A stretch of 64,000 nucleotides of DNA from Verminephrobacter eiseniae EF01-2 (lineage in GTDB: Bacteria > Pseudomonadota > Gammaproteobacteria > Burkholderiales > Burkholderiaceae_C). The stretch spans positions 5,072,501 through 5,136,500 of the forward strand of contig NC_008786.1 in assembly GCF_000015565.1 (NCBI RefSeq), written 5' to 3'. This document shows, in pieces, positions 3,428 through 60,400 of this stretch. Positions within the stretch are counted from its first letter, which is position 1. Each line of letters starts with the position of its first letter. The notes beneath the pieces were generated by a model. The model searched no databases and was not told where the DNA came from. It was given only the letters and a program-made list of their open reading frames with translations. A program made the position numbers and the translations under genes.

Positions 3428-3587
3428 GTGTTGCGTCACCGATCAGATGTCGTAGGCTGCGCGCAGCCATCGAAGCGCAGCGCAAGGCGCATCGCGCAGC
3501 CCATACCGAGCGTATTGGCAAGCGATGCAACGCCGCGATGCGCTTCGATGGCCAGCGCAGACCGACAGATGATCGGTGACGCGACAC
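3428..3587 (+). repeat. MITE-like palindromic element, copy 1 (160 bp)
   Basis: This is one of four copies in the window. It begins GTGTTGCGTCACCGATCA and ends TGATCGGTGACGCGACAC, so the termini are an inverted repeat with one mismatch. The interior is also an imperfect palindrome around a CCATACCGAGCGTATTGG hairpin, so the whole strand can fold back on itself. It has the same orientation as the copy at 42463 and the opposite one to the copies at 35923 and 60253. The flanks here (CA and GA) do not show a clear TA duplication. It lies between two convergent genes, where it could also act as a bidirectional transcription barrier. Confidence 0.85.
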
Positions 3588-35922: not shown

Positions 35923-36082
35923 GTGTCGCGTCACCGATCATCTGTCGGTCTGCGCTGGCCATCGAAGCGCATCGCGGCGTTGCATCGCTTGCCAATACGC
36001 TCGGTATTGGCTGCGCGATGCGCCTTGCGCTGCGCTCCGATGGCTGCGCGCAGCCTACGACATCTGATCCGTGACGCGACAC
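35923..36082 (-). repeat. MITE-like palindromic element, copy 2 (160 bp), flanked by TA
   Basis: GTGTCGCGTCACCGATCA at the left matches GGATCCG.. to CGCGACAC at the right as an inverted repeat; one base (C at 36070) differs from the other copies. TA flanks both ends, consistent with a TA target duplication as made by IS630/Tc1-type elements. Orientation is opposite to copies 1 and 3. It lies downstream of the LysR gene and before IS3 debris, between convergent genes. Confidence 0.88.
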
Positions 36083-40436: not shown

Positions 40437-41607
40437 GGGCACCTCGGTCTTTGGGCAGTCCGAGCGTGCGCTCGGCCACGATATTGCGTTGGATCTCGGA
40501 TGTGCCCGCCACGATGGTTTCGGCGCGGGACCAGAGGAACTCGCGGACCACGGCAGCCGATTCGGGATGGCTGTCGATGGCTTCCGGGCCCAACAGAGCC
40601 GACTCACCGAGCAACTCCAAGCGGAACTCCTGAACCTGCTGGCGGGTTTCGCTCCAGAGCAGTTTGAGCATGGCGCCCTCGATGCCGGGCGTTTCACCCG
40701 CCGCCACCGCGTCGAGCACTTTGTCCACGCGCGATCGAACGACGCGGCACAGGTCGACGATGGATTGCAGTCGGTGCTCCAGCACATGCCGTTCGGCGGG
40801 GGGCACGGCGGCAGCGGCGAGTTCGTCCTGTAACTGTGCCAGCTCCTGCTCGAGCATGACCACGCGCGGCAGGAAGTACACGCCACGCTCGTACTCGGCG
40901 GCAGCCATCGCGATGCGCCAGCCTTCGCCCTCGGCGCCCAGTACCTGATTGGCAGGCACCTCGACGTTTTCGAAGAACACCTCGGCGTAGTCGGTCTCAC
41001 CAGTGAGCTGCCGTATCGGTTCGACGCGAACGCCCGGTGCTTGCATGTCGACCAACATGAAGCTCAGGCCGCGGTGTGCCACGCCGGCAGGATCGGTCCG
41101 CACCAGCGCGAAACACCATTTCGCCAAGTGTCCCTGGGTGGTCCAGATTTTGTGTCCATTGAGAAGCCAGTGGCCATTCGACTGGCGCGCCGCTCGCGTG
41201 CGCACCGAAGACAGGTCGGAGCCCGTGCGGGGCTCGGAGTAGCCCTGGCACCAGATCTCCGTACCGTTGCGGATGCCCGGCAGGAAGCGCGCCTTCTGTT
41301 CGGACGTGCCGAACATCAGCAGCGTTGGCGCGAGGATGGCGTGCGCGATGCTGTTGATGGGTTGCGGCGCGCGGTGCCGAGCGCACATCTCATGAAATGC
41401 GATGAGCGTGGCAGTCGGCAGGGCGCGGCCGCCCCGGTCCTCCGGCCAGGTCAGGGCCACGAGGTCCGTGTCGCACAGCATGCGGTTCCAGTCCTGCCTG
41501 CAGGACGGCGTGTGCGAGGCCGCTTCGGCGTGCTGCGCGCGCAGCAGCGTCAGTGCCTCCCCCAGCCAGGTGGCCGCATCGTCCAGAAAATGGGATGTTC
41601 GAATCAT
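40426..41607 (-). CDS. Acyl-CoA dehydrogenase, large/alpha-type subunit
   Basis: The 393-residue enzyme has the acyl-CoA dehydrogenase blocks IWCQGYSEPRTGSDLSSVRTRA (FAD and substrate side), HKIWTTQGHLAKWCFALVRTD and the C-terminal GTSEIQRNIVAERTLGLP. It introduces a 2,3 double bond into an acyl-CoA, passing electrons to ETF. Overlap with the small subunit gene supports a heteromeric enzyme. The start at 41607 overlaps the CoA-transferase B stop by 4 bp. Confidence 0.9.
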   Translation of the reverse strand: MIRTSHFLDDAATWLGEALTLLRAQHAEAASHTPSCRQDWNRMLCDTDLVALTWPEDRGGRALPTATLIAFHEMCARHRAPQPINSIAHAILAPTLLMFGTSEQKARFLPGIRNGTEIWCQGYSEPRTGSDLSSVRTRAARQSNGHWLLNGHKIWTTQGHLAKWCFALVRTDPAGVAHRGLSFMLVDMQAPGVRVEPIRQLTGETDYAEVFFENVEVPANQVLGAEGEGWRIAMAAAEYERGVYFLPRVVMLEQELAQLQDELAAAAVPPAERHVLEHRLQSIVDLCRVVRSRVDKVLDAVAAGETPGIEGAMLKLLWSETRQQVQEFRLELLGESALLGPEAIDSHPESAAVVREFLWSRAETIVAGTSEIQRNIVAERTLGLPKDRGAHAK

Positions 41608-42299
41608 GTGGAGGTTTCCTTCAAAGGCGGTGTGCGCGGCAGATCGATCACCGCGACTGGGCCGTCCAGGCGCACGGGTCCGGAGATCCATTCGTGCAGC
41701 GCGCTCACGTCCAGGCCCGGCACCAGCGCCCGGGGGACGAAGTGGCCGTCTCGCAGATCGAAGACACCGATATCGGTGTAGACCCGATTGACGACGCCGG
41801 CACCCGTCAGCGGCAGGGTGCAGTGCGACACGAGGCGCGGCCGGCCTTCGCGCGTGCGCGCTTGCATCATCACCCACAGCGCGCGGGCGCCGATGGCAAG
41901 ATCCATGGCGCCCCCCACGGAGGGCAGCGGATCATCGGGGCCGAGCGACCAGTTGGCCAGGTCGCCGCTCGCGGACACTTCGAAGGCGCCCAGCATGCTC
42001 ACGTCCAGGCGGCCACCGCGCATGATGGCGAACGAACAGGCGTGATCGAAGATGGCGGCCCCTTCGGTCAAGGCGATGAACTGTTTGCTGGCGTCGATGA
42101 GGTCGACATCCGGCGACTCGTCGCCGCCCAGCAGGCGCATGCCGAGAATGCCGTTTTCACTGTGCAGGAACACGCCGTGCTCCGCGGCCAGGTAGTCGGT
42201 CACCTGCGTCGGCATGCCGATGCCCAGGTCAACCACGGCGTTCTTCGGCAAGTCGCGGGCCACCTGCTTGGCCATCTGTCGACGGTCCAGGCGTTTCAT
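41604..42299 (-). CDS. Class I CoA-transferase subunit B
   Basis: The 231-residue protein is a beta subunit of 3-oxoacid/3-oxoadipate-type CoA-transferases. It contains NAVVDLGIGMPTQVTDYL, the catalytic Glu in LHSENGILG, and MGGAMDL-like VGGAMDLAIGAR. It forms a complex with the A subunit encoded upstream, whose gene carries the MITE-like insert. Subunit B itself is intact. Confidence 0.92.
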   Translation of the reverse strand: MKRLDRRQMAKQVARDLPKNAVVDLGIGMPTQVTDYLAAEHGVFLHSENGILGMRLLGGDESPDVDLIDASKQFIALTEGAAIFDHACSFAIMRGGRLDVSMLGAFEVSASGDLANWSLGPDDPLPSVGGAMDLAIGARALWVMMQARTREGRPRLVSHCTLPLTGAGVVNRVYTDIGVFDLRDGHFVPRALVPGLDVSALHEWISGPVRLDGPVAVIDLPRTPPLKETST

Positions 42300-43129
42300 G
42301 CGGCATCGTCCTGCAGGAGTCGATTGACGAACAGGCTGGGCGTGATGATCACATCAGGCGCCAACGCACCGAGTGCCACAATCTGCTCGACTTCCACGAT
42401 GGTCGTGGCTGCGCCCATGCACATGATGGGACCGAAGTTGCGCTGCGCGTACCGGTACGCTAGTGTCGCGTCACCGGTCAGATGTCGTAGGCTGCGCGCA
42501 GCCATCGGAGCGCAGCGCAAGGCGCATCGCGCCGCCAATACCGAGCGTATTGGCAAGCGATGCAACGCCGCGATGCGCTTCGATGGCCAGCGCAGACCGA
42601 CAGATGATCGGTGACGCGACACCAGGTTGCCGGTGGTATCGGCCTGGCTGGCGCGCACGAATGCAAAATCCGCCGCGAGCGGCTCCTCGAGCACATAGCC
42701 ACGCCCTTTGTACATGCGGGTCTCCTTGCCTTGCGCCAGTGGCGTGCCGAATCCGGTGGGTGTGAAAAACGGCCCCTGACCCGCACCGGCCGCACGGATG
42801 CGCTCCACCAGGGTGCCTTGTGGCATCACGTCCACTTGCAGCCGACCGGCTTCGACCTGTTCGCGCAGCACCTCATTGCCGGGCATGCGGGGATAGGAGC
42901 ACACGATGCGGCCCACACGGCCGGCACGCACCAGCCCCAGAAAACTCGTGTCTCCCGCGCCGGCGTTGTTGTTGATCAGGGTGAGGTCTTTCACACCTTG
43001 CTTGTCCAGCAGACCGCGCAGCAGTCGGGCTGGAATGCCCGAACCGCCGAAACCGCCGACGTAGATCGACGCGCCAGACATCACGTCGCGTAGCGCCTCG
43101 GTGACCGAGTGGCAGGTCTTAGCGCGCAT
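42296..43129 (-). CDS. Class I CoA-transferase subunit A with a 54-residue in-frame MITE insert
   Basis: The 277-residue product is a CoA-transferase alpha subunit: MSGASIYVGGFGGSGIPARLL, LTLINNNAGAGD and FFTPTGFGTPLAQGKE. Residues 1-169 end in SQADTTGNL and residues 224-277 resume AYRYAQRNFGPIMCMGA; together they give a normal 223-residue subunit. Residues 170-223, starting VSRHRSSVGLRWPSKRIAAL, come wholly from the 160-bp repeat at 42463-42622 plus a 2-bp target duplication. The insert has no stop and keeps the frame. It may be tolerated as a surface loop or may inactivate the enzyme. The start at 43129 overlaps the MaoC gene by 11 bp. Confidence 0.88.
   Translation of the reverse strand: MRAKTCHSVTEALRDVMSGASIYVGGFGGSGIPARLLRGLLDKQGVKDLTLINNNAGAGDTSFLGLVRAGRVGRIVCSYPRMPGNEVLREQVEAGRLQVDVMPQGTLVERIRAAGAGQGPFFTPTGFGTPLAQGKETRMYKGRGYVLEEPLAADFAFVRASQADTTGNLVSRHRSSVGLRWPSKRIAALHRLPIRSVLAARCALRCAPMAARSLRHLTGDATLAYRYAQRNFGPIMCMGAATTIVEVEQIVALGALAPDVIITPSLFVNRLLQDDAA
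42463..42622 (+). repeat. MITE-like palindromic element, copy 3 (160 bp), inside the CoA-transferase A gene
   Basis: It starts GTGTCGCGTCACCGGTCA and ends TGATCGGTGACGCGACAC. The flanks are TA (left) and CA (right), so a TA duplication with one later change is likely. 160 bp plus 2 bp is 162 bp, exactly 54 codons. On the minus strand, in the frame of the gene, no stop codon occurs. Confidence 0.92.
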
Positions 43130-44015
43130 CGTGGTGTTCCATCTGAATCCAGGACGCGCTACCCGTGGCGAGGTCTCGCTGATCCTGTTCGCAACGGCAG
43201 CGGAAGATGACCCCGCACGGCGTGCGCCAGAGCGCCACGGCCACAGTTTCACCGGGGAAGAGGGGGGCACGAAAACGCATGTCCAGTTCGCCCAGGCGGT
43301 GGTTCGGGTGCTGCTGCAGCTCGTGCTGCAGCACCCGGTCCACCAAGCCGAGGAGGGCCGCGCCATGCAGGATCGGGCGGTCATAACCGGCACGGCGCGC
43401 CGCTGCTGGGTCGATGTGCAAAGGGTTGCGGTCGGCGTTGAGGCGGTATAGCGCGGCCTGTTGGGCACTGGTGGGTACGCGGACCGTGCGATCGGGCTCG
43501 CGCGCCGGGGGGCTGGGGATCGGCGGGGGCAGGACATCGCTCAACGCCGGATCGCCCCCTGCATAGCCACCATCACCGCGGCAGACATTGGTCTGCTCGA
43601 TGATGGCCACGGGCATTTGCGTGATGGAGTCAGACAGGATGCGCCGCGTCACGACGATCGCGCCCTTGCCTTCGCCTTTGTCGGCAACGCGGCTGACCGC
43701 CATCTGGCAACGCACTTGACCGGCGGCCGTCAGGGGGCTTGGGAAACGCATGCGTTGCTCACCGTGCACCACTTGCTGCCAGGCCACGCCGTGCTCGGGC
43801 GAGCGCATCCAGAAGCCCGGATAGGCCAGCACCGAAGCTTGGGTGGGCAGCGCGCGCAGGACCTCCTCGTACAGGAACTCCGTTTCGTCGCCCAGCCCCC
43901 CCTCCCCGCCCAGGCCGGCGCCCACACCCAATGCGTACAGGATGGTGGCATCGGCGTCGTAGGTCTGCGCGATCTCCTCGAAGCGAGTGGCCTTCAGGCG
44001 GTGGTAGTCCAGCAT
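43119..44015 (-). CDS. MaoC-like (double hotdog) enoyl-CoA hydratase
   Basis: The 298-residue protein has two hotdog halves, as in the (R)-specific hydratase part of multifunctional enzyme 2. The first half is LGVGAGLGGEGGLGDETEFLYEE and the second carries the hydratase-2 motif YRLNADRNPLHIDPAAARRAGYDRPILHG with the Asp/His catalytic pair. It would add water to a trans-2-enoyl-CoA produced by the acyl-CoA dehydrogenase pair. Its partner in the next step is the SDR or the thiolase-like enzyme encoded upstream. Confidence 0.88.
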   Translation of the reverse strand: MLDYHRLKATRFEEIAQTYDADATILYALGVGAGLGGEGGLGDETEFLYEEVLRALPTQASVLAYPGFWMRSPEHGVAWQQVVHGEQRMRFPSPLTAAGQVRCQMAVSRVADKGEGKGAIVVTRRILSDSITQMPVAIIEQTNVCRGDGGYAGGDPALSDVLPPPIPSPPAREPDRTVRVPTSAQQAALYRLNADRNPLHIDPAAARRAGYDRPILHGAALLGLVDRVLQHELQQHPNHRLGELDMRFRAPLFPGETVAVALWRTPCGVIFRCRCEQDQRDLATGSASWIQMEHHDAR

Positions 44016-60252: not shown

Positions 60253-60400
60253 GTGTCGCGTCACCGATCATCTGTCGGTCTGCGCTGGCCATCGAAGCGC
60301 ATCGCGGCGTTGCATCGCTTGCCAATACGCTCGGTATTAGCTGCGCGCTACGCTCCGATGGCTGCGCGCAGCCTACGACATCTGATCGGTGACGCGACAC
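60253..60400 (-). repeat. MITE-like palindromic element, copy 4 (148 bp), flanked by TA
   Basis: It has the same ends as copies 2 and 3 (GTGTCGCGTCACCGATCA / TGATCGGTGACGCGACAC) and TA on both sides. It lacks 12 bp in the inner right arm relative to the 160-bp copies. Like copy 3, it has a stop-free frame along its length, and the 12-bp loss keeps that frame. It ends 46 bp before the start of the Bug gene at 60447, so it may affect that gene's leader. Confidence 0.9.

Follow-up and report, generated by a model that had tools for sequence, protein, structure and literature searches.

Introduction

The Rickettsia palindromic elements, as described in two reports, are palindromes of about 100-150 bp that lie in frame in many unrelated genes (PMC10969869, PMC3767692). 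Palindromes also occur in genes among the GTAG/CGTC-tagged repetitive extragenic palindromes (REPs); these code for 20-82 residues, and recB carries one at nearly the same site in two Xanthomonas species (PMC3733652). The Coxiella elements QMITE1 and QMITE2 are bacterial miniature inverted-repeat transposable elements (MITEs) that sometimes extend genes or enter them in frame (PMC5896051). Here we describe a 160-bp hairpin element that interrupts, in frame, the gene scoA for a CoA-transferase subunit in a 64,000-nucleotide stretch of DNA (the window) from a Hydrogenophaga-like bacterium. Very probably, this is a non-autonomous, MITE-like hairpin for which a CTGG-like site sets a stop-free reading phase, so that an insertion in a gene usually adds 54 residues.

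The likeness to the Rickettsia palindromes, already drawn by a first-pass annotation made from the sequence alone, stands as one of way of working. Like them, the element is palindromic, present in many copies (about 300) and found in frame in unrelated genes (17 of the 19 gene-internal copies here), and at 160 bp it is slightly longer than those described. Unlike them, it has a GC-rich, Hydrogenophaga-like host, a hairpin and a length kept in five genera, and a single phase that goes with a CTGG-like site. With the tagged REPs it shares its presence in genes and insertion at much the same site in two species, in this case in a helicase gene; however, those REPs are 20-40 bp long with the tag at one end (PMC3733652), whereas our element has 160 bp and CTA/TAG flanks and does not qualify as a REP. 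QMITE1 and QMITE2 differ in size, have direct repeats, and hit functional genes mainly at their ends (PMC5896051). As in MITEs related to the insertion sequence (IS) IS630 with a TA duplication, most copies have TA at either side; the compared empty sites, however, are not TA, and no partner IS with these ends was found in 27 loci matching the transposase family DDE_3. We regard the element as a new family of a known kind, the protein-coding palindromic element. What seems new is the scale, the host lineage, the family itself and the link between the site and one codon phase. Among the titles listed from open-licence PMC articles, none reports an element of this sort from Hydrogenophaga or Comamonadaceae, which does not prove that no such report exists.

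Results

The interrupted gene and its neighborhood in the window comprise the following features:

42296..43129, minus strand: scoA, 3-oxoacid CoA-transferase subunit A, 277 residues with a 54-residue insert (TIGR02429)
42463..42622, no strand given: 160-bp hairpin element inside scoA, with ends GTGTCGCGTCACC and GGTGACGCGACAC (recognized by fold and copy number)
42460..42462, no strand given: flank triplet CTA; opposite flank CAG at 42623-42625
41604..42299, minus strand: scoB, subunit B, 231-residue open frame overlapping scoA (Pfam CoA_trans)

The scoA gene forms a single uninterrupted open frame from 43129 to 42296, and its profile score of 269.8 bits against TIGR02429 (cut-off 128.5) assigns it to the subunit A family. 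Residues 170-223 are the insert, 54 stop-free codons made up of the 160-bp repeat plus 2 bp, which splits the Pfam CoA_trans match in two. The first-pass annotation had given exact coordinates for the repeat and had read it as an in-frame insert within an otherwise intact subunit. Relatives lacking the repeat, with which it had proposed an alignment, agree: orthologues of 223 residues are that of Hydrogenophaga palleronii (P0003, L091), the closest named relative, and P0001, which is 99% identical to scoA outside the gap by the aligner's count. The DNA alignment with H. palleronii L091 contains one gap only, of 162 bp. Apart from the insert we found no lesion in scoA; scoB is open and 91% identical to that of H. 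palleronii, with a TIGR02428 score (224.3 bits) below the cut-off (243.55). Two details of the annotation were not confirmed. The supposed 2-bp target duplication is not supported, as the insert is bordered by TA (42461-42462) on one side and CA (42623-42624) on the other and the empty site in relatives is CTGG; and across that site relatives read GNL-V-YRYAQRNF, not GNL-A-YRYAQRNF. A second, uninterrupted scoA of 223 residues, followed by a scoB reading frame, lies elsewhere in the genome (G000:C2:4415126-4415445, L179). It is 87% identical to the interrupted gene over the 320 bases searched, and its empty site is likewise CTGG.

Folded as RNA, the element forms a single hairpin over its whole length, at −111.3 kcal/mol (mean of 200 shuffles −67.7, sd 4.0; z −11). 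A search with a 13-bp end, allowing at most one mismatch, gave 307 forward and 313 reverse matches in the 5.6-Mb genome, as compared to 15 and 10 for a reversed-pattern control, and therefore points to about 300 copies, far above chance. Most are nearly identical: in an initial comparison of 66 copies with 160 bp, 60 lay within four bases of the consensus. The element is short, has terminal inverted repeats and carries no transposase gene of its own, in line with its earlier description as MITE-like. Of 128 copies, 72 are flanked by CTA/TAG and 7 by CTG/CAG. The consensus has no stop on either strand when read in the CTA phase, and the other two phases, flanks included, hold one to four stops. 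The motifs GTAG and CGTC lie within the consensus and not at its extreme ends. Adjacent head-to-tail pairs of elements with one TA in common were seen at L055, L080 and L021. Over positions 42000-43200 an Rfam search returned nothing above the gathering score (MIR918 and P17 appeared below threshold), and carriage by plasmids or phages was rejected, since blastn against collections of both found no match to the element.

To place the copies relative to genes we analyzed 128 of the 139 distinct copies found, namely those of 150-170 bp, the other 11 being dropped for length. These copies are a non-random mix: the best hits obtained with two copies as queries, the 30 places that came first in the pattern search, loci from the DDE_3 and genus searches, and tiled windows (40 of 20 kb and the 64-kb window, four of them chosen for density). 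Genes were called with our own codon-usage score, for which 365 long frames were the training set; an earlier model trained on the longest frames was dropped because it failed to separate the strands. Both flanks were coding-like on one strand in 21 of the 128 copies, of which 19 fit one interrupted gene and two (L081 and L090) do not. By our criterion coding sequence makes up 63% of the 864 kb sampled, so that 19 of 128 represents a strong depletion inside genes. Seventeen of the 19 are in frame and stop-free at the same codon position, in both orientations and always with 160 bp, and the remaining two, at 161 bp, are frameshifting. If only the tiled windows are counted, in-frame gene insertions were 7 of 55 copies. 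The 17 in-frame copies sit in 16 genes, 14 of which have a Pfam match above the cut-off:

scoA; a short-chain dehydrogenase/reductase (SDR); a major facilitator superfamily (MFS) transporter; a resistance-nodulation-division (RND) transporter; a polyketide synthase (PKS)
biotin carboxylase, with the insert between the carboxylase and biotinyl domains
four receptors of the TctC type (L120, L128, L063, L072)
an acyl-CoA synthetase-like protein; a ketoacyl-synthase-like protein; a nonribosomal peptide synthetase (NRPS) with two inserts
a HisH-like amidotransferase (subfamily assigned by eye)
a glycerol-3-phosphate dehydrogenase-like fragment (name given by eye, without a Pfam match)
a short frame with a dehydrogenase match below the cut-off

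The NRPS gene with two inserts and the PKS gene with one lie near each other (L067 633-3104 and L019 2-2821, at about 2.76 Mb of G000:C2). TctC-type receptors make up 4 of the 16 genes.

Within coding sequence, CTGG itself favors the phase of the in-frame copies (4931 of 6583 sites). Finding at least 17 of 19 copies in frame has a probability of 3×10−9 with uniform phase, and of 0.001 once this bias and the share of 160-bp copies are taken into account. The frame was open in all 17 in-frame gene copies and in 71 of 111 copies that were not called as gene-internal (Fisher p = 0.0014), gene copies being scored on the strand read and other copies on both strands.

Empty sites were sought within the genome itself, where most matches were other copies of the element and, beyond the close scoA paralogue, only a few distant ones, and in other genomes. 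The HisH-like gene has CTGG in G001 and TTGG in G026, and the TctC gene L120 has ATGG in G016 (78% identity over the stretch, possibly a paralogue). CTGG-like sequences were the commonest, and none of the compared empty sites was CTAG. TA stands on both sides of most copies, and the compared empty sites carry TG and other dinucleotides; the flanking TA therefore looks unlike a copied target TA. From these comparisons the ends of the element seem to be rewritten; at these sequence distances, mutation to CTAG ahead of each insertion is possible. Away from element ends CTAG is rare, with 84 sites in the 864-kb sample.

Within the genus 38 of 46 other genomes gave a match, mostly to the central 55 bp only among the matches listed; this segment (element positions 55-109; loci L162-L178) recurs in hairpin repeats with different ends in many genomes of the genus. 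In two other species, G010 (L271) and G046 (L250), a near-full element lies in frame in a helicase gene, judged by eye to be Lhr-like, in the same phase and at the same codon. The locus is empty in the other 26 of 28 loci compared (24 with YTGG, 2 with CTCG), and a FastTree phylogeny of 900 bp downstream puts the two in different clades, in which all other species have the empty site (local support is 0.96 and 0.98-0.99, but only 0.45 at the innermost group with G046). The simplest reading is that these are probably two independent insertions at the same codon. Synonymous divergence (dS) is 0.07 between the inserts as compared to 0.37-0.57 in the flanks; constraint on the hairpin could be an alternative cause of this slow divergence.

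Among 299 genomes of the family searched at E 1e-10, with two candidates scored per genome, 7 matched, the element's own genome (G000) included. Relatives of 158-160 bp with 71-89% identity occur in G326, G061, G314 and G251, which represent four other genera; G111 and G220 have only the core in common with the element. One of three copies in G326 is in frame in a gene, and in G314 the element has amplified separately, between the same flanks, 13 of the 16 copies there having 160 bp. Thirteen elements chosen from seven genomes in five genera were aligned, and both sides change in 26 of the 50 pairs. By each of five measures the observed value was reached by none of 500 shuffles and by no slid structure, a reservation being that the structure was derived from that same alignment. 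This pattern indicates that the hairpin is maintained by compensatory changes.

Three further copies of the element lie in the window:

3428..3587, plus strand: element copy with flanks CCA/GAG, not called inside a gene
35923..36082, minus strand: element copy with flanks CTA/TAG, not called inside a gene
60253..60400, minus strand: element copy L061, 148 bp, flanks CTA/TAG, outside the 128 analyzed copies for length

Discussion

Our observations can be joined in the following model. A non-autonomous hairpin of 160 bp, of which each insertion adds 162 bp, would be moved by a transposase acting in trans from a putative partner. Its preferred target in genes would be CTGG-like, usually the Leu codon CTG followed by G. 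Such a target would place the element in the sole codon phase in which both strands are stop-free, so that an insertion in a gene would usually add 54 residues instead of destroying it, and copies landing in genes in other ways would mostly be purged by selection. The copies, their length, phase and open frames, the empty sites and the conserved hairpin were observed, and we infer from them the site preference as the origin of the phase, mobilization in trans, translation and tolerance. We put forward more tentatively, and as doubtful, a stronger form: that the choice of CTGG (the commonest Leu codon plus G), the 162-bp step and the two stop-free strands together make a phase-locked mobile palindrome that spreads through genes as a low-harm cassette of 54 codons.

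Several results weigh against this model. Once the phase bias of CTGG is allowed for, in-frame copies are only modestly in excess (p = 0.001). The gene calls rest on our own codon-usage score, and two of the 16 genes (L102 and L088) lack a Pfam match above the cut-off. A comparable open frame appears in 10% (both strands) to 31% (perfect palindrome) of shuffles, for which reason we rejected the open frame as a mark of selection. Not every empty site is CTGG-like: that of L069_1501 is CAAG in G001 (88% identity) and GCAG in G026, and distant paralogues of L063, L097_15001, L020_1501, L099_17924 and L128 include CCAG, CCGG and unlike sequences besides CTGG. The helicase inserts have equal nonsynonymous and synonymous divergence (dN = dS = 0.07); there is therefore no visible selection on the insert peptide, and purifying selection on it was not seen. 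Finally, the 16 copies in G314 include no convincing in-frame gene insertion, the two with coding-like flanks being out of frame and holding stops. That genome keeps the 160-bp length all the same, so the length need not be kept for coding, and G314 gives no support to its maintenance for that purpose.

As to how the element moves, it might be an IS630/Tc1-mariner-type MITE that duplicates TA within CTAG, a reading we find plausible but somewhat improbable. The CTA/TAG flanks of 72 of 128 copies would fit it, IS630 reportedly prefers TA in CTAG (to judge by the title of a 1991 paper by Tenzen and Ohtsubo), and the genome holds 27 DDE_3 matches, 26 of them above the cut-off. However, the compared empty sites are never CTAG and the CTG/CAG flanks of 7 copies are not direct duplications. 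Moreover, in none of the 27 DDE_3 loci (the match and about 1.5 kb on each side) do the 14-bp ends of the element bracket the transposase, which speaks against IS630 elements as its source; other transposase families were not tested. Four of these loci hold whole or partial copies of the element nearby. It is unlikely, in our view, that the element is instead a REP-like hairpin moved as a single strand by a Y1 (RAYT-type) transposase. A 162-nt unit with a conserved hairpin would suit single-strand excision, and a copy lies about 146 bp downstream of the sole Y1_Tnp match in the genome (L237 1437-2464), a neighborhood that is suggestive at best of a partner; but that is a single copy on one side only, the element has 160 bp against 20-40, GTAG and CGTC are internal to it, and symmetric CTA/TAG flanks would be unexpected.

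For scoA itself, the competing account is a plain insertional hit that is in frame by luck, leaving a dead or unstable subunit and a pseudogene open only through recency. We judge this somewhat less likely than not. The insert separates G167-N168-L169 from Y225-R226, whose columns are invariant or at least 90% conserved among 42 sequences, and this conservation points to a sensitive insertion site. A hairpin of −111 kcal/mol would sit in the mRNA, and the second scoA, with its scoB reading frame, may serve as a backup for the function of the interrupted pair. On the other hand, scoA shows no further lesion, scoB is open, and the share of in-frame copies among those inside genes, 17 of 19, exceeds what chance alone would give. 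The structure model keeps the core fold of the CoA-transferase and renders the insert as a disordered loop, although models of this kind register destabilization poorly. Under our main explanation, translation of the gene probably yields a ScoA subunit in which a 54-residue loop, flexible and basic, separates a strand from a helix, an insert that the fold may tolerate. Since the insert splits the nearly invariant GNL-YR motif, a fold kept in the model does not settle activity, and whether the enzyme is affected stands at about even odds.

Protein-coding palindromes are best known from Rickettsia and Wolbachia, where their effects on proteins are hard to test; the Rickettsia elements RPE-1 to RPE-3 were reportedly described by Ogata et al. 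in 2000 and 2002. Here a free-living lineage carries hundreds of mostly recent copies; the uninterrupted scoA paralogue serves as a control, one NRPS gene holds two inserts, and the helicase gene was entered twice, in two species. The system allows a direct test both of the frequency with which proteins accept an insert of 54 residues and of the way in which target choice fixes the reading phase. If the stronger form of our model is true, the proteins that a phase-locked palindrome tags in a single genome would number perhaps 40, by extrapolation from 17 of 128 copies, and the insertion of selfish DNA into proteins in frame would become testable in a free-living bacterium.
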